A DNA stretch of 5,560 nt from Pseudomonadota bacterium. GTDB taxonomy: Bacteria; Pseudomonadota; Gammaproteobacteria; Burkholderiales; SG8-39. Below the pieces are notes generated by a model, which was not told the DNA's origin, ran no database searches, and saw only the letters and a program-made list of their open reading frames with translations. Positions 1 through 5,560 of this stretch are shown here, piece after piece; within the stretch, counting starts at the first letter, position 1, and each line of letters opens with the position of its first letter. Location: assembly GCA_021847125.1 (NCBI GenBank), contig JAJZUK010000103.1:1-5560 (forward strand). Reading direction: 5' to 3'. The position numbers and the translations under genes are program-made.

Positions 1-959
1 AAGTCGTAGCGCGGCGCCGCCAGCGCCTGCCACTCCTGGGCCACGAGGTTGAGGTCGTACAGTTTCGCCTCGGCGAGCCAGGCGCTGTAGCGTTCGAACA
101 GGTCGTAGAGTTTGTCGCGCTGGCTTTCCGGAAAAATCGATTGGCGCACGCCGAGCGCCCGATAGTCGTCTCGCGACAGGATACCGCCGGCGCCGGCGGC
201 AACCACGCCGCGGATTTCCTCGAACGCCCGGTGCGCGTCGAACTCCTTGAACGCCTGCCGCATCCGCGCAAACCAGAGCGCAAAGTCGCGCCAACTTGCT
301 TCCCGCCCGGCAGGTACTCGGATCGATTCGACGAACTCGCGATAGGAAAGAAATACCGCCTCCTGCCCGTCTCGTTCAAAGCCGTTGGCATAGTAAATGT
401 CCCGCGCGCTTTGGGCGAGATAGGCGGAGTGGGTGACGTAGAGCACCTCGCCTTGTTCGTGCTTGAGCTTTTCCAGGGTCAGCGCCGTTTTGCCGCTGCC
501 GGCGCTGCCCACCACGACCAGGGGTGGCGGAAGGCGGTAAATCGCCTCCTGCGTGTCGTCGAAGGAAATCGGCTTGTCGAGCAGGTGAATCGCGGTGCGC
601 TCCGGGTGCAGATAGCGCAGCGGCTGCGCCTCGTTGATGGCTTCGGCCGCATCGATATCCACAATCCTGGATTCATCAATGGCCGCGCCGCGCAGGAAGC
701 GCGACTTGTCGTAATCGTGATTGACGATCACTTCCAGCATCAGGGCGCAGACTTCGTCTCCGCGCCGAACCAGGGAAAACAGCAGGCGGTCGGCCTCATC
801 GAGCTTGGCGCGGTAGAATTTTCCGTTCCCGTGGCCGAGATTGGCCAGCTTCTTCACCTGCGCTGCGCGAAAGTCCTGGCGGGCGATGGCATCGGCGACC
901 TTGCGATAGCTGGCCTTGACGCGGGAAGTGTCGAGGCCGATGTATTCGAGGACCTTCAT
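1..959 (-). CDS. UvrD-like superfamily-1 helicase with RelE-like N-terminal region (partial, C-terminus off window)
   Basis: The first 319 residues are present and the reading frame stays open to the window edge. Residues 1-95 do not look like helicase: the stretch FYRAKLDEADRLLF (48-61) followed by VCALMLEVIVNHDYDKSRFL (70-89) resembles the core strands of RelE/ParE-type toxins. From about residue 130 the protein is helicase: a Q-motif-like Gln at 137 (DDTQEAI) and a Walker A P-loop GSAGSGKTA at 151-159, typical of UvrD/Rep/PcrA ATP-dependent 3'-5' translocases. The segment ending YDLNLVAQEW (301-310) resembles the stretch before Walker B in UvrD-like proteins; Walker B and later motifs lie outside the window. 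The start is fixed by an in-frame TAG at 966-968, only two codons upstream. The ribosome binding site is weak, and the preceding small gene ends 30 nt upstream, so cotranscription is likely. The helicase call is firm; the RelE-like reading is my inference from pattern. The role (DNA repair or phage defence) is undetermined. Confidence 0.85.
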   Translation of the reverse strand, partial: MKVLEYIGLDTSRVKASYRKVADAIARQDFRAAQVKKLANLGHGNGKFYRAKLDEADRLLFSLVRRGDEVCALMLEVIVNHDYDKSRFLRGAAIDESRIVDIDAAEAINEAQPLRYLHPERTAIHLLDKPISFDDTQEAIYRLPPPLVVVGSAGSGKTALTLEKLKHEQGEVLYVTHSAYLAQSARDIYYANGFERDGQEAVFLSYREFVESIRVPAGREASWRDFALWFARMRQAFKEFDAHRAFEEIRGVVAAGAGGILSRDDYRALGVRQSIFPESQRDKLYDLFERYSAWLAEAKLYDLNLVAQEWQALAAPRYD

Positions 960-989
960 CGGTCGCTACCGGCGCTCGGGGCAGGAAAG

Positions 990-1202
990 CTACGCTTCTT
1001 TGGTGAAGATCGCCTGGTCGCCACCAACGTTCTGCCCCAACGGCTGGTCATCAACATTCTCGAACAAGCGCCTGATTTCCGGATCCGCCAACTTCAGCAG
1101 CGCCGGATCAGACTGATACGCAAGCAGCATGAAAGCGCGATTCGCCTCGATCTCCTGCAGGAGCAGCAGGTTCTCTTCAGCGGTCAATTCAACCCTGGCC
1201 AT
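990..1202 (-). CDS. Small acidic protein of unknown function between nucleotidyltransferase and helicase
   Basis: I do not recognise this 70-residue product. It starts MARVELTAEENLLLL and is predicted by eye to be mostly helical. It is acidic (13 Asp/Glu against 6 Lys/Arg) and has no signal peptide, membrane segment or cysteine. The case for a real gene is the translation signal: a near-perfect Shine-Dalgarno (GGAGGAGGT, read on the minus strand) lies 5 nt before the ATG, inside the end of the nucleotidyltransferase gene. The two genes overlap by 14 nt in different frames, and the helicase starts 30 nt after this stop. A small acidic protein placed immediately before a helicase with a RelE-like N-terminus could be an antitoxin-like or adaptor partner. 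That is inference from position only. Confidence 0.65.
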   Translation of the reverse strand: MARVELTAEENLLLLQEIEANRAFMLLAYQSDPALLKLADPEIRRLFENVDDQPLGQNVGGDQAIFTKEA

Positions 1203-1701
1203 GTTGCACCTCCTCCAGTTGCCGCTTGATCTTGCGCAACTCTTCGATATCCAGCATGTCCTTGCTCCGACCGGTTCCGGTTTTCAAGCGTATCAGGTCG
1301 TCGATGCTCGCCACAGGAATCGACAGCGGCCCGATGCGCTTGGTGAGCGCATTGCGCTTGAGTTCGTCGAACGAAACCACCGGACGCAGCAGCACGTCGA
1401 TGACGGTCGCCAGCATGTCCGGGCCGCGCAAGGCGAAAACCAGCATGCCCTTGTCGCGCTGCCATTGGTCGACAAGCGCGGCGTCGCGCAGGGAATCCAG
1501 CGGAATCGGCAGCACCGGCTTGAGCTTGGCGCTCCTGGCGCAGTCAACGAACTTCGCAAGGTTCTCATCGTTCAAAGCCAAAACCACATCCACGTCCATG
1601 GTAAGGCGTTGATAGCCGTGCAAGGTCACCGCTAGGCCCCCGACCAAAACGTAGTCGATTTTGGCGCTGGACAGGGTAGCAAGAAGCTTGTACATGCTCA
1701 T
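1189..1701 (-). CDS. AbiEii-like / minimal nucleotidyltransferase (170 aa)
   Basis: The protein has the signature of the DNA polymerase beta-type nucleotidyltransferase fold: LVGGLAVTLHG at 19-29 (the GG motif, in place of the canonical GS) followed by RLTMDVDVVLAL at 32-43, where Asp36 and Asp38 would bind the catalytic metals. The C-terminal part has the conserved LIRLK..TGRSKDMLDIEEL pattern (137-155) seen in AbiEii/DUF6036-type nucleotidyltransferases, which include toxins that modify tRNA or proteins. Length suits a stand-alone single-domain member. The upstream ATG (1701) has no good ribosome binding site, and a second ATG two codons in (1695) is an equally possible start. It is first in a three-gene unit with the small acidic protein (14-nt overlap) and the helicase. 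The fold is clear; the substrate and any toxin role are not visible from sequence. Confidence 0.85.
   Translation of the reverse strand: MSMYKLLATLSSAKIDYVLVGGLAVTLHGYQRLTMDVDVVLALNDENLAKFVDCARSAKLKPVLPIPLDSLRDAALVDQWQRDKGMLVFALRGPDMLATVIDVLLRPVVSFDELKRNALTKRIGPLSIPVASIDDLIRLKTGTGRSKDMLDIEELRKIKRQLEEVQHGQG
1208..1216 (-). promoter_or_regulatory. Strong Shine-Dalgarno for the small acidic protein
   Basis: On the minus strand this reads GGAGGAGGT, nearly a full complement to the 16S rRNA 3' end, with 5 nt before the ATG at 1202. It lies within the last codons of the nucleotidyltransferase gene. It is the strongest such site on the minus-strand unit and is the main reason to accept the 70-residue gene. 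Confidence 0.8.
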
Positions 1702-1939
1702 GGTCGAAGTGTACCCAGTCTGGGCTTCCCTTGCTATCTCGAGTCGGCGCGACGCTAATAGCGCTCCCTGGCGCCACGGCTCTTTGCTAAACTAGCTGCC
1801 CGCAAATCTTGCTCGCTACACCGGATCGCTCGATAGGCGGAGGTCGGCATGCATCGCGCCCGAGTCCGAACATCGCTGCACCGGCACTTCAACACAGGTT
1901 TCCGTCCATACCCGATAACACGAAAGAGCAGGTCCCCCC
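1702..1939. other. Divergent intergenic region with short palindromes
   Basis: No convincing gene is seen between the nucleotidyltransferase (leftward) and the nitroreductase-like frame (rightward), so promoters for both should lie here. Three short perfect inverted repeats are visible: CCCAG-T-CTGGG at 1714-1724, CGCTA-A-TAGCG at 1753-1763 and TGGCGCCA at 1769-1776. The first is only about 12 nt upstream of the nucleotidyltransferase ATG. A possible extended -10 (TGCTAAACT, ending near 1792) points rightward but has no clear -35. No promoter can be assigned firmly on either strand. Confidence 0.5.
1714..1724. repeat. Inverted repeat CCCAG-T-CTGGG upstream of nucleotidyltransferase
   Basis: This is a perfect 5-bp-arm palindrome with a one-base centre, about 12 nt before the nucleotidyltransferase ATG. 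GAAG and CTTC tetramers flank it (1706-1709 and 1725-1728), with unequal spacing, and extend the partial symmetry. The position would suit an operator or a leader hairpin controlling the minus-strand unit. Such short palindromes also arise by chance in GC-rich DNA. Confidence 0.4.
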
Positions 1940-2110
1940 ATGTTGCCAACCGCGATGTCCGTTTCCGAAGCGTTACAAAAGCGCTTTTCCGTTCGCGCCT
2001 TCAAGGACACCCTTGTGCCGCAGGAAGTGCTGGAAGAGATTTTCACCCTCGCCCGGCACGCGCCTTCCAACTGCAACGTCCAGCCCTGCCGGGCCTACGT
2101 CGTATCCGGC
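1940..2110 (+). pseudogene. Nitroreductase remnant (N-terminal ~57 residues only)
   Basis: This is the part of the chimeric frame that is recognisably nitroreductase. It contains the N-terminal helix and the FMN-phosphate contact region but lacks the central dimer-forming helices and the C-terminal substrate and FMN contacts, so it cannot form a normal nitroreductase by itself. The family's usual Trp after the conserved QP is Cys50 here, a further sign of degeneration or divergence. Similarity stops abruptly at about base 2110. Confidence 0.6.
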
Positions 2111-2428
2111 GCGATCGGACACTCTCCCTCCCGCAAGCCCTGGATGCTTGCGCATGACGATATCGGCGTGCTGATGGCGTGGTGGTTCGTCATCGCCGCT
2201 TGCCTTGCCGCTTTCGACCTGGTGTCTTCGCGCGCTGGCTACGTTCCGCTCTATGCGAGCGTAGGCGAGCATGCTTGGCAGGCGACGCTGTGCGCCGGCG
2301 TCATCGGCGCGCTCTGCGCCGAGCACAACCGGCTGCTGTGGTGCTGCATCTCGGCGCTGGGCGGATTGATCGCGCTCGTCGTCATGGTCGCCGCAATCAC
2401 GCTCGTGTCCGGCCTGCTGGCCGCCTGA
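1940..2428 (+). CDS. Chimeric frame: nitroreductase N-terminus fused to a three-helix membrane segment
   Basis: The 162-residue product has two unrelated parts. Residues 6-57 match the start of FMN-dependent nitroreductases: KRFSVRAF at 14-21 (the Arg-x-Ser-x-Arg that contacts FMN phosphate) and ARHAPSNCNVQP at 38-49, then the strand AYVVSG. A full nitroreductase has roughly 200 residues; nothing after residue 57 resembles that family, and no continuation is seen in the other two frames. From about residue 75 the chain is strongly hydrophobic, with likely transmembrane helices near 75-95, 112-127 and 133-162. I do not recognise that membrane part. It may once have had its own start: in-frame ATGs lie at 2144 and 2171-2175, neither with a ribosome binding site. 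The chosen ATG at 1940 has a modest GAGCAGG site 7 nt upstream; ATG 1955 is the usual nitroreductase start. A deletion joining two genes is the simplest explanation. Whether the chimera is functional is unknown. Confidence 0.55.
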   Translation: MLPTAMSVSEALQKRFSVRAFKDTLVPQEVLEEIFTLARHAPSNCNVQPCRAYVVSGAIGHSPSRKPWMLAHDDIGVLMAWWFVIAACLAAFDLVSSRAGYVPLYASVGEHAWQATLCAGVIGALCAEHNRLLWCCISALGGLIALVVMVAAITLVSGLLAA

Positions 2429-2486
2429 CCGCCTCCGCCGAAACACGCGGCCGCATCGCGCTGCATGATGGCCAAGGCCCAGTAAA

Positions 2487-2498
2487 CAAAGGCCTTTG
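2487..2498. repeat. 12-bp palindrome CAAAGGCCTTTG at the TetR promoter
   Basis: This perfect 12-bp inverted repeat overlaps the first bases of the -35 box (2496-2501) of the tetR promoter. Its centre lies 19 bp from the centre of the second palindrome (2507-2516). It could be a second operator, or a chance feature. Confidence 0.45.
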
Positions 2499-2525
2499 AC
2501 ATTTATCGAACGTTCGTGCTATTAT
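2496..2525 (+). promoter_or_regulatory. Sigma70-like promoter of the tetR-GNAT operon
   Basis: A perfect -35 TTGACA (2496-2501) and a -10 TATTAT (2520-2525) are separated by 18 bp. This is the best consensus promoter in the window. Transcription would begin about 7 nt after the -10, at or next to the ATG at 2533. Confidence 0.75.
2507..2516. promoter_or_regulatory. Likely TetR operator, palindrome CGAACGTTCG
   Basis: This perfect 10-bp palindrome lies in the spacer between the -35 and -10 boxes. Dyads of this AACGTT type in this position are typical operators for TetR-family proteins, which commonly repress their own gene. Binding here would block RNA polymerase. That the neighbouring TetR protein is the ligand is inference. 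Confidence 0.6.
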
Positions 2526-2532
2526 TTGCGTC

Positions 2533-3183
2533 ATGCGCAAAGGACAGCAAACCCGGACCGCGATTCTGGAACAGGCTCTGGCCATAGCCAGCCAAGCCGG
2601 CCTGGCCGGCCTGACCATAGGCACGCTCGCCGAGCGCAGCGGCCTGTCCAAGAGCGGATTGTTCGCCCACTTCGGCTCCAAGGAAGGGCTGCAGCTTGCC
2701 GTCATACACGGCGTGCGCCAACTCTACTCCGACCTCGTGTTTCAGCCTGCTATACAGCAGCAGCCCGGCCTTGCACGGCTGCGCGCGATCGTCGAGAACT
2801 GGCTCAAATGGACCGCCAGCGCGAAACTCCCGGGCGGCTGCATCATGACCGCGGCCGCCTACGAATTCGACGACTGGCCCGGCCCGGTCCGGGAACTCGT
2901 TTCGCAAAGCCTGCGCGAATTGCGCAAGACTCTCGCCCGCAGCGTGCGTCTGGCCCTGCAGGCCGGCCAATTGCACGCGGATACCGATGCGGACCAGCTT
3001 GCATTCGAGATTTTCTCGCTCTATCTCGGCGCGCAGCTCGATGCCCGCCTGTTCGGCGACCCGCACGCCTACGCGCGTGCGCTCGTCGCATTCGAAAACC
3101 TGCTCGAGCGCCACGGCGGCGGCAGAGCGCCGGCTCGCGCCGGCGACCGTCCTGCACTGGCAGCGGCAAACGGCGCCCATTGA
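2533..3183 (+). CDS. TetR/AcrR-family transcriptional regulator (216 aa)
   Basis: The N-terminus is a standard TetR DNA-binding domain: helix 1 (TRTAILEQALAIASQAG, 7-23), then the helix-turn-helix LTIGTLAERSGLSKSGLFAHF (27-47), with the recognition helix around 39-45, followed by GSKEGL (48-53). The C-terminal ligand-binding domain contains GGCIMTAAAYEFDDWPGPVRE (101-121), a conserved block of a TetR subgroup; the effector cannot be told from sequence. The last ~20 residues are an Ala/Arg/Gly-rich tail beyond the usual domain. The start is certain: an in-frame TGA lies at 2497 and no other start codon fits between it and the ATG. There is no Shine-Dalgarno, and the promoter -10 ends only 7 nt upstream, pointing to a leaderless mRNA. 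It probably represses its own operon with the GNAT gene, which begins 2 nt after its stop. Control of the upstream nitroreductase-like frame is possible but not shown. Confidence 0.93.
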   Translation: MRKGQQTRTAILEQALAIASQAGLAGLTIGTLAERSGLSKSGLFAHFGSKEGLQLAVIHGVRQLYSDLVFQPAIQQQPGLARLRAIVENWLKWTASAKLPGGCIMTAAAYEFDDWPGPVRELVSQSLRELRKTLARSVRLALQAGQLHADTDADQLAFEIFSLYLGAQLDARLFGDPHAYARALVAFENLLERHGGGRAPARAGDRPALAAANGAH

Positions 3184-3185
3184 AC

Positions 3186-3791
3186 ATGAACGCGCAAGCC
3201 CATTCCGACTACCTGGCGCAGCTGACCAGCTCGTATTCGCCGATTTACGGCCAGGCGATCAGCATTCGCCCGATGCTGCCGGCCGATCTCGATATCGAGA
3301 CCGAGTTCGTGCAGAGCTGGTCCGCCGAGACGCGCTACAACCGCCTGTTCAGCGCCGGCTCCTACACTTCGCCCGAGCGCCTGAAGAAAATCACGCGCAT
3401 CGACTTCACGCGCGACATGGCCCTGATCGCGACCATGATGCTGGAGGACAAGGAAGTGCAGATCGGCGTGGCGCGCTACGTGCGGCGCCCCGACGGCAGA
3501 ACCTGCGAATTCGCCCTCACCGTGGCCGACGCCTGGCAGCATCGCGGCATCGGCCGCGCGCTGATGCTCAACCTGATCGACACCGCCGCCGCGGCCGGGA
3601 TAGAGACCATGGTCGGCGACATCCTCTCCACCAACAGGCCCATGCTCCATTTCATGCGCTCGCTCGGCTTCAGCATCGAGTTCTCGCAGGACGGCCCGGA
3701 AATCCGCCACGTCAGCAAACGCCTAGTGCCGATCGCTCCGGCTGCTACGCCTTCGAATTCGCAGCCCAGCGCGTCCGCCGCAGCGCAATAG
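3186..3791 (+). CDS. GNAT-family N-acetyltransferase, Pat-like (201 aa)
   Basis: This is a single GNAT domain that transfers acetyl from acetyl-CoA to an amino group. Beta strand 1 is AISIRPMLPADLD (24-36), the region ETRYNRLFS (48-56) resembles the acetyltransferase domain of protein lysine acetyltransferases of the Pat/YfiQ type, and motif A with the CoA pyrophosphate loop is WQHRGIGRALM (117-127; Q118-x-x-G121-x-G123). Motif B follows as NRPMLHFMRSLGFSI (150-164). Residues 182-201 form an Ala/Pro/Ser-rich, probably disordered tail. The ATG lies 2 nt after the tetR stop with no clear ribosome binding site, so translation is probably coupled. The frame is open far upstream to 2496, but that part is only an overlap of the tetR gene. 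A protein substrate such as acetyl-CoA synthetase is suggested by similarity to Pat; a small-molecule substrate is equally possible. Confidence 0.88.
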   Translation: MNAQAHSDYLAQLTSSYSPIYGQAISIRPMLPADLDIETEFVQSWSAETRYNRLFSAGSYTSPERLKKITRIDFTRDMALIATMMLEDKEVQIGVARYVRRPDGRTCEFALTVADAWQHRGIGRALMLNLIDTAAAAGIETMVGDILSTNRPMLHFMRSLGFSIEFSQDGPEIRHVSKRLVPIAPAATPSNSQPSASAAAQ

Positions 3792-3797
3792 CCGCGG

Positions 3798-3818
3798 CCC
3801 GGGGTAAGCACCCCCGGG
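3798..3818. terminator. GC-rich hairpin between convergent operons
   Basis: The arms CCCGGGG (3798-3804) and CCCCGGG (3812-3818) form a perfect 7-bp stem with a 7-nt loop. It sits in the 44-nt gap between the GNAT stop and the aconitase-X small-subunit stop, so it could end transcription from both sides. Neither strand has a following T-run, so it is not a classical intrinsic terminator. Confidence 0.5.
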
Positions 3819-3835
3819 GATTCAAAACGCCAGCT

Positions 3836-4252
3836 CTATTCCACCAGCGTGAGCGTGCCCGTTTGCGGATCGACTTCCACTTCGGCGCCATTGGGAACAG
3901 CCGCCGTAATGTCTTCGTCAAATCCGGCGAGCATAGTCACATCGCCCAATGCGGCGCCCTGCGCGAGAATGGGATTCACGGAGTTGAGCACCAGCGCCAG
4001 CGGCACGATGCCGCGCGATTGCATCTCGTGCAGCATCCATGCAGTGGCGACGCCGCCCTTGGCGGTATCCAGCACCAATATCTTGCCCACGTAGGACTGG
4101 CCGGCCAGCTTGTGTGCGGGACGGGAGAATATGCCGGCAATGCGGTCGAGGTCATAACGCGCCGAAAAACCGTCGTGCGCGACCAATGCGGATCCACGTA
4201 CCGCGCGCCCCATCCCCTGCCGCGCGCGAAACACCCTGGGCTTCGCGTTCAT
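3836..4252 (-). CDS. Aconitase X small subunit / swivel domain (DUF126 type, 138 aa)
   Basis: This is the swivel half of an aconitase-X dehydratase, which closes over the active site of the catalytic subunit. The order of elements fits the family: an early HDGFSARYDLD (26-36), AHKLAGQSYVGKILVLDTAKGG (46-67), MLHEMQSRGIVPLALVLN (73-90), and DVTMLAGFDEDI (104-115) with a C-terminal NGAEVEVDPQTG (121-132). The ATG overlaps the TGA of the catalytic gene (ATGA), preceded by GGGAG, so translation is coupled. An upstream in-frame extension to 4543 runs through the catalytic gene in another frame and is not real. Oddity: the family's serine-rich loop (GRGSSxGS in the members I recall) reads AKGGVATA here (64-71), with no serine. 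In characterised members a serine here is thought to act in catalysis, so the reaction may differ. Confidence 0.87.
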   Translation of the reverse strand: MNAKPRVFRARQGMGRAVRGSALVAHDGFSARYDLDRIAGIFSRPAHKLAGQSYVGKILVLDTAKGGVATAWMLHEMQSRGIVPLALVLNSVNPILAQGAALGDVTMLAGFDEDITAAVPNGAEVEVDPQTGTLTLVE

Positions 4253-5481
4253 GCCAATCTCCCGCTTACCGCGGCATCCACGCAGGCTTGCATCGAGCCC
4301 AGCATGGGTTGATAGCCGTAGCCGCCCAGTATGTTGACCAGCTTTGCGCTGTTGGTCGCCAAGCGCTTCCACCCCTTGGCCTCTGCGATCTCGCGCGCGT
4401 AGGACTGATAGAAGCACATGCCGGAAAACACGGTACCGCCGGCCGCCTCGATGCTTGCGGTATAGCCCATGCGGTCGGAGTCCGGCTTTACCTGGGGGCT
4501 GGTCACCGCCAGCAGCGGCACGGCGAACTGCCTGCCTGCGCATAGCCCGGCCAGCTCGCGTAGCTCGTACAGGCTCAGCTGCGGCGCCGAGAATACGACC
4601 ACGTCTACCCTATCGTCCTTGCGGTAGGACTGCTGCAGGGCGTCGATGTCGGCGCGCGTGACGCGATGGCTGGGCAAGCCGGGGGCCGCCACGTCGGCCA
4701 GACGGTAGGCTTCGGGCGTAATGCCCGCCAGGTGAAACAGCGCAATCGAGCCGAAGCTCGCCATCGCCGCGCCGAAATGCTTGAGCTGATCCGATCCGGG
4801 CGCAGCCTCGATGCCCTCGATCGCCGGCACGGCCCAGTAGTTGCCCGCGATGCGCCCGATCACCCCGCCCAAGGCGCCCCACTCATTGAGCGAGGCCGGC
4901 GTGAAGTCCACGCGTACGTGCAGCGTCGCACGCCGCTGTTCGGGCAGGTGAAAACCGTAGCGCGGCGTGCGTCCGGTAAGACCAGCCGACAGCGCCGATG
5001 GCCCTCCCTCGAAGTTGGAGTACGCACCGCAGACCGAATTGGAATAGATGACCACGCCGGTGTCGCCGAAGGCCACGTGCTCGTTGCGCGTAGGCGCCTG
5101 TATGGTCTGATAGTTGATGCAGGTGTCGGTCATCACCACGCCGAGCTTTACGAACGCGGCGATCGCGCGCCGTTCGAGATCGAGCATCGCGCAGGTCTGG
5201 CCCAGAAACTCCGCCTTGGCAAAGTCGGTGCCGCGCGGATCCGTGATCGTCGGAATGCGCACGCGCCTTTGCCCCTCCACGGCGGCGGCGAGCCCCTCCA
5301 GCCAGCGCACGCCGGCCTCGCCCAGGCTTTCGGTGTCGGCCATGATATGTGCCTGCGTCACCGGAACGAAATCCTTCGCACCGAAAAAATCGCCCACCTT
5401 GATCTGGTGCTGCAGCGCCAGCAGCGGCACCGGGCCGCGCTTGCCGGCCAGGATCTCTTGTTCTTCGTCGTTGAGTTTCAT
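4249..5481 (-). CDS. Aconitase X catalytic subunit (DUF521 type, 410 aa)
   Basis: This is the large subunit of the two-chain aconitase X, an iron-sulphur dehydratase. Bacterial members characterised so far dehydrate cis-3-hydroxy-L-proline, and archaeal ones act on mevalonate 5-phosphate. Landmarks are IPTITDPRGTDF (76-87), MTDTCINYQTIQAPTRNEHVAFGDTG (117-142) with YSNSVCGAYSNFEGGPSAL (146-164), TSPQ (327-330) and FSGMCFYQSY (352-361). Cys121, Cys151 and Cys356 are in the conserved blocks and are the likely cluster ligands (inference). The length is normal for the large subunit alone. I chose ATG 5481 because MKLNDEEQ is the usual family start and a GGTGGA motif lies upstream; an ATG at 5529 would add 16 residues overlapping the upstream gene. 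The gene starts 5 nt after the stop of a Bug/TctC-like gene and overlaps the swivel gene by 4 nt, so all three form one operon. The exact substrate is not determined. Confidence 0.9.
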   Translation of the reverse strand: MKLNDEEQEILAGKRGPVPLLALQHQIKVGDFFGAKDFVPVTQAHIMADTESLGEAGVRWLEGLAAAVEGQRRVRIPTITDPRGTDFAKAEFLGQTCAMLDLERRAIAAFVKLGVVMTDTCINYQTIQAPTRNEHVAFGDTGVVIYSNSVCGAYSNFEGGPSALSAGLTGRTPRYGFHLPEQRRATLHVRVDFTPASLNEWGALGGVIGRIAGNYWAVPAIEGIEAAPGSDQLKHFGAAMASFGSIALFHLAGITPEAYRLADVAAPGLPSHRVTRADIDALQQSYRKDDRVDVVVFSAPQLSLYELRELAGLCAGRQFAVPLLAVTSPQVKPDSDRMGYTASIEAAGGTVFSGMCFYQSYAREIAEAKGWKRLATNSAKLVNILGGYGYQPMLGSMQACVDAAVSGRLA

Positions 5482-5486
5482 CGTAG

Positions 5487-5560
5487 TCAGTCCACCGTTG
5501 CGCCGGAGTCGCGCACCGCCTTGCCCCACTTGACCATCTCTGTGCGCTGAAATTCGGCAA
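5487..5560 (-). CDS. Bug/TctC-type tripartite tricarboxylate transporter binding protein (C-terminal 23 residues only)
   Basis: Only the last 23 codons lie in the window: AEFQRTEMVKWGKAVRDSGA followed by TVD and a TGA stop. The pattern E-x-x-K-W-G-K-x-V-x-D-S-G-A near the stop is the characteristic end of Bug/TctC periplasmic solute-binding proteins, which are greatly expanded in Burkholderiales and deliver organic acids to transporters. The stop is 5 nt before the aconitase-X start, so the genes are cotranscribed. It suggests that the ligand taken up is related to the aconitase-X substrate. The call rests on a short tail only. Confidence 0.7.
   Translation of the reverse strand, partial: AEFQRTEMVKWGKAVRDSGATVD

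Follow-up and report, generated by a model that had tools for sequence, protein, structure and literature searches.

The three minus-strand genes clustered at the start of contig JAJZUK010000103.1 of a burkholderial Pseudomonadota bacterium (positions 1 to 5,560; this whole 5,560 nt stretch is hereafter the window) are probably two independent units lying side by side: a toxin-antitoxin-like module of a nucleotidyltransferase (NTase) and a small partner protein, and a single-gene protein which combines RelE-like, UvrD-type helicase and ankyrin parts. The NTase gene (1189..1701; 170 aa), whose product is DUF6036/AbiEii-like and a putative toxin, overlaps by 14 nt the gene for a small acidic partner (990..1202; 70 aa), a putative antitoxin. 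A 30 nt gap separates the latter from the helicase gene (3..959), which is open at the window edge and encodes the first 319 residues of a ~950-aa protein. This arrangement is present as described in an earlier note on this DNA, which had taken the three genes for one possible defense or toxin-antitoxin unit. The NTase/small-protein pair of that unit proved to be conserved and toxin-antitoxin-like, but the helicase did not hold up as a member; a false three-gene defense system is thereby replaced by two testable objects.

The trio is refuted in the collections searched, as the helicase is found apart from the pair and the pair apart from the helicase. We searched 399 genomes of the order that includes G001, a genome which encodes close relatives of the helicase (94% identical, contig C9) and the NTase (88% identical, contig C59). 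The helicase matched in 21 genomes (20 strongly, one at E 9.6e-4) and the NTase in 50. Both were found in five (G001, G087, G141, G266 and G358), and among these they shared a contig only in G141, ~10.5 kb apart. In 98 genomes of the family, a set overlapping that of the order, the helicase was found in 8, the NTase in 36 and both in 7, with no case on the same contig. The conserved neighborhood that the earlier note had proposed as a check was therefore absent: helicase and NTase matches were adjacent in 0/399 order genomes and 0/98 family genomes, many of whose assemblies are fragmented. No helicase match was present in nine NTase loci (flanks of at most 6 kb, shorter at contig ends), although two of the nine genomes, G001 and G004, carry a helicase on another contig (in G004, helicase on C238 and NTase on C104). 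Conversely, no NTase match was present in the helicase loci L010-L034 or in three plasmid helicase loci with flanks of 6-7 kb.

The DNA of the window is likewise divided. Homology to G001 consists of two blocks, 1-984 (93.4%) and 1048-1737 (92.2%), the second of which holds the NTase/small-gene module on the minus strand, and a 63-base stretch (985..1047, no strand assigned) separates them. The match of another locus (L113) to the helicase block likewise stops at 984, and most other matches on this side stop at 950-963, about the start codon. On the NTase side, the block extends in L001-L005 and L117 from 1043-1053 to 1722-1738; outside it, the window DNA has no match in the NTase relatives. 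Bases 985-1042 matched nothing in any fetched locus, L117 reaching 1043. Given these two blocks with a junction between them and the separate occurrence of their genes, we conclude that the trio is a local juxtaposition. The two units might have met by chance, or both might have landed in variable regions. We considered whether the junction might be a hairpin or cassette-like site and rejected the idea, as the folding of 960-1060 gave a z of -1.13 and 20/200 shuffles were as good.

The NTase scores above the Pfam cut-off for DUF6036, a family of unknown function for which our literature search found no papers, whereas its AbiEii score of 22.0 bits is below the gathering score of 22.5. In an alignment of the window protein with 18 relatives of 33-88% identity, G21, G22, T34, D36, D38, D102, K140, R145, D148 and D151 are identical in 19/19 sequences, and all recognized active-site residues are in place (GG, T-x-D-x-D, and a later K and D). 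The only solved relative retrieved by sequence was MenT1 (E 0.023). The distribution of the NTase in the order (50/399 genomes) is patchy.

The small protein is conserved over about its first 50 residues. The last ~18 are encoded by the junction sequence and have no match in the relatives, which carry other tails. It matched no Pfam or other family, and no solved relative was found. The HEPN motif is Rx4-6H; the small protein contains no histidine, so it lacks this motif. We asked how often an ATG open reading frame (ORF) of 40-110 aa starts within -30 to +15 of an NTase stop codon, and found one in 31/38 loci, the window included, compared with 50/375 control genes of at least 150 aa from the fetched loci; as many as 21 NTases remained among the control genes and could only raise their count, and one of the 31 positives (L062) is in a different frame from the partner detected by profile. 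With profiles for four partner types (A, B, C and D; the window partner is type A), partners, sought in relatives on the downstream side only, were found in 55/61 NTase loci, or in 29/35 when the 26 loci that had supplied profile seeds were set aside. Of the six partnerless NTases, one is a partial match (44%), one is truncated where its contig ends and the other four are at 27-30% identity. When partner types, 'none' counted among them, were mapped on a tree of 60 of the 61 NTases (a single short row was omitted), 6 changes were needed, compared with a shuffled mean of 33.3, and as few changes were seen in 0/200 shuffles. As partner type tracks the NTase tree, NTase and partner have been inherited together. 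The loci examined thus contain four partner types, each staying with its own NTase lineage. Profile comparison makes a relationship between types A and B probable (hhalign probability 72%) and one between types C and D possible (58%); the other pairs are unsupported (at most 22%; 0.9% for A and D). Together, these comparisons support the NTase and small protein as a conserved, toxin-antitoxin-like two-gene module. As a separate observation, a type B partner (L040, genome G163) continues in frame into what we read as a prepilin-like sequence within a 237-aa ORF, for which fusion, read-through and assembly error are all possible.

The sequence (A/G)GACTGGGTACACT, ending six bases before the NTase ATG, is common to the DNA upstream of the NTase in the window and in six close relatives. 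The window copy, AGACTGGGTACACT (1708..1721, minus strand), lies immediately 5′ of the start codon in this sense and recurs in the six relatives with one A/G change. The exact 15-mer CAGACTGGGTACACT was found in 7/140 fetched loci, three of which are duplicates; all seven are NTase loci. The 14-mer occurs once in the window, where 0.11 occurrences are expected when at most 3 mismatches are allowed. A -10-like TACACT is located six bases 5′ of the ATG, which suggests that it may serve as the -10 box of the module's own promoter and that the transcript may be leaderless. Similar boxes of the form TAnnnT precede the start codon of several distant NTases by a few bases but are missing from others, and this pattern suggests that leaderless transcription may occur in part of the NTase family. 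The palindrome CCCAGACTGGG upstream of the NTase was not called an operator because it is not exactly kept in L001, L004, L005 and L117.

The helicase of the window is, as judged by its relatives, the N-terminal third of an independent single-gene unit (block 1-984) whose full-length members are ~950 residues long. In these relatives, a RelE/YoeB-like domain is joined to a UvrD-type helicase, with an ankyrin part at the C terminus. The N-terminal domain (residues 1-85; 705..959, minus strand) has the RelE/YoeB-like BECR fold in the predicted structure, which bears out the suggestion of the earlier note that the helicase carries an extra RelE-like domain at its N terminus. Its K37, R50, R58, E76, H81 and Y83 are identical in 13/13 aligned members, down to 37% identity, and such constancy suggests a working active site. 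The Walker A motif of the helicase, GSAGSGKT, spans residues 151-158 (486..509, minus strand); a strict Walker A pattern missed L031, and the motif pattern [VA][AL].TRA missed P0002, L032 and L033. The structure model of the full-length helicase was too poor to be used (mean pLDDT 60.3). A search of the viral fold library gave no match at E up to 0.001. No paper on a RelE-UvrD-ankyrin protein was recognized in our literature search, and the protein is an independent architecture that is not described in the papers found.

The RelE-UvrD-ankyrin gene has a patchy spread across phyla and was detected in 111/5426 E. coli genomes and 133/72,556 plasmid records; judging from these sequence surveys, it is a mobile gene. 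On three E. coli chromosomes (L105, L106 and L107), we observed as its neighbors inovirus-Gp2-like or YagK/YfjJ, helix-turn-helix, Rpn and insertion sequence (IS) genes. The helicase had no constant neighbor in 19 fetched loci, in which the widest cluster reached 3; this cluster lies kilobases away, and both members that were scanned proved to be GGDEF proteins. Immediately upstream, a single gene was shared, by 2/19 loci (L069 and L070), and it had no Pfam match. Among the called ORFs of at least 50 aa, no antitoxin gene was found beside the helicase in the 19 loci, several of which are on short contigs. Compared with PADLOC, the helicase neighbors (72 of 85 proteins) gave 71 families, of which 25 are listed with one member each; the listed families include Cas1/Cas4, DrmD/DrmA/HmaA/BrxH-type and SoFic, the Cas1 being the Cas4-Cas1 gene of G141. 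The neighbors of type A NTases (48 of 50 proteins) gave 13 families, several of which are generic ATPases. The ORF caller placed some GC-rich genes on the wrong strand and missed the window helicase, the small gene and four other helicases, so these neighbor lists are approximate.

NTase modules of type D were found in contact with type I-G CRISPR genes. In G141, the gene directly after the type D NTase (L082:13857-17216) encodes a 1119-aa protein that begins with a match to the type D partner profile and has Cas3g at residues 116-1105; the genes for Cas8g2, Csb1/Cas7g and Csb2 come next. In G057, Cas3g ends immediately ahead of the NTase, and the type D partner is about the first 74 residues of the Cas8g1/Csx17 gene directly after it (L062:1977-3455). 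Cas3g was above the cut-off in 3/12 type D genomes, namely G141 and G057, where it is beside the NTase, and G449, where a weak NTase match (30%, E 1.2e-5) lies ~5 kb away from it and the type D NTase is on another contig. The RelE-UvrD-ankyrin gene of G141 (L082:3654-6821, contig C36; 54% identical over the window part) is inside the same type I-G locus, between the Cas4-Cas1 gene (L082:689-2722) and the effector genes (9596-17216). The partner fusions suggest that adaptive immunity can take up NTase modules as components. Our literature search found no paper that treats type I-G, Csx17 and a nucleotidyltransferase jointly.

How the three genes act can be read in several ways. That they form one defense system, as the earlier note supposed, with the NTase or the RelE-like domain as effector and the helicase as sensor, draws on their common strand and tight spacing in the window, and on G141, where one type I-G locus contains a helicase relative together with a distant NTase; with no adjacent pair in either genome set, a DNA junction between the homology blocks and helicases found without the NTase, we regard it as highly improbable. 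For the NTase pair as a toxin-antitoxin-like module, the small partner would be translated by coupling at the 14 nt gene overlap and would bind the NTase so as to cover the active site. Once stress or infection had released it, the NTase would attach nucleotides to an RNA and halt translation; the 3′ ends of tRNA, the target of MenT1, are the likeliest substrate. Alternatively, the pair may be a two-subunit enzyme which modifies RNA or a small molecule, with the small protein as the substrate-binding subunit: DUF6036, of unknown function, passes its own cut-off and AbiEii falls just short. A comparable doubt has been raised about MNT-HEPN pairs in the portion of the literature consulted (PMC2701414). 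The patchy distribution, the unmatched flanks despite high identity and the four partner types, however, resemble mobile conflict modules more than metabolism, and make such an enzyme unlikely. Less likely still is that the small partner acts, instead of or besides being an antitoxin, as an adaptor by which the NTase is docked to further machinery, for instance defense complexes. The N-terminal fusions of the type D partner to Cas3g and Cas8g1/Csx17, each directly after the NTase gene, speak for it, but they account for 2/12 type D loci and 0/13 type A loci, the type B partner of L040 runs into an apparent prepilin rather than a defense protein, and homology between types A and D is unsupported.

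For the RelE-UvrD-ankyrin protein, the helicase and ankyrin parts may sense the state of a nucleic acid or protein and, taking the role of an antitoxin, gate the RelE-like RNase. We tentatively propose, as a possibility well short of an even chance, that it is a cross-phylum one-gene immune family, in which a RelE/YoeB-like RNase that lacks an antitoxin is restrained by its own UvrD/ankyrin parts and fires once the helicase encounters invading nucleic acid, and that, separately, NTase/partner modules have been wired into type I-G operons by partner-Cas3g/Cas8g1 fusion. A further possibility, though less likely than not, is that the protein promotes the fitness or the maintenance of mobile elements or is an enzyme that repairs nucleic acids, the RelE-like domain being only a binding module. 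The three E. coli loci inspected are mobile islands with IS and satellite-like genes, the neighbors in other genomes are metabolic and PADLOC matches near the helicase are few, with one member in each of the 25 families listed of 71; on the other side, the six residues constant in all aligned members suggest a working active site, and the helicase gene of G141 sits inside a CRISPR locus.

The remaining genes of the window, which encode a protein with an N-terminal nitroreductase match, a TetR regulator, a GNAT acetyltransferase and two aconitase X parts, have no evident link by sequence to the NTase, the small protein or the helicase. The ORF at 1940-2428 (plus strand), which adjoins the NTase module, matches nitroreductase over residues 13-58 only, the remainder being different and hydrophobic, and resembles a truncated or rearranged nitroreductase. 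At 3836-5481 (minus strand), the large part and the swivel domain of aconitase X (PF04412 and PF01989) are encoded by two adjacent genes.

Among known systems, the helicase shares a UvrD-type core with Gabija GajB, to which PADLOC gave partial matches, but differs in carrying RelE-like and ankyrin parts. The helicase was not assigned to Gabija, since the matches are partial only; no GajA is annotated beside the helicase in six annotated loci, and the window ends on the far side of the gene. The predicted fold of its N-terminal domain is that of the RelE/ParE (BECR-fold) toxins, mono- and multidomain, from which it differs by fusion to a UvrD helicase and ankyrin part and by the absence of a detected antitoxin. 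A recent survey of RelE/ParE proteins states, in the sections available to us, that many multidomain cases without a recognizable antitoxin were left out (PMC11980606). As 'helicase' and 'ankyrin' have 0 occurrences in its main text, this widespread architecture is absent from the main text of that multidomain survey (PMC11980606).

The NTase pair resembles MNT-HEPN modules, described in the consulted portion of PMC2701414, in being a patchy two-gene module of an NTase and a small protein, but its partner has no HEPN match. It has the NTase active-site motif in common with the type IV system AbiE (AbiEi/AbiEii), although its AbiEii score is below the cut-off; unlike AbiEi, which the abstract of a paper describes as a two-domain antitoxin, the window partner has 70 aa and no recognized domain. 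The closest characterized system is MenAT1 of Mycobacterium tuberculosis. Both have a single NTase of similar size (170 aa here and 196 in the solved MenT1 chain) with T-x-D-x-D and a later K and D. The MenT1 residues T39, D41, K137 and D152, reported in an excerpt of PMC11375011 as tested by mutation, correspond by motif, not alignment, to T34, D36, K140 and D148 or D151 of the window NTase. Both also have a linked partner of 60-70 aa. According to the part of PMC10435456 that we consulted, MenA1 has 68 aa, lacks a DNA-binding domain and takes the form of a long helix. It binds a pair of toxins, whose active sites it blocks. Its C-terminal 17 residues are unresolved in the structure and can be deleted, and this dispensable tail parallels the variable tail of the window partner. 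The same part places menA1 upstream of the menT-like gene in 15/21 cases, whereas the small gene of the window is downstream of and overlaps the NTase gene; the sequence match to MenT1 is E 0.023, and the partners have no detectable homology. NTase motif and partner size thus match, but gene order is reversed and partner homology is lacking; we therefore consider that the window pair probably works like MenAT1 without being a member of that system.
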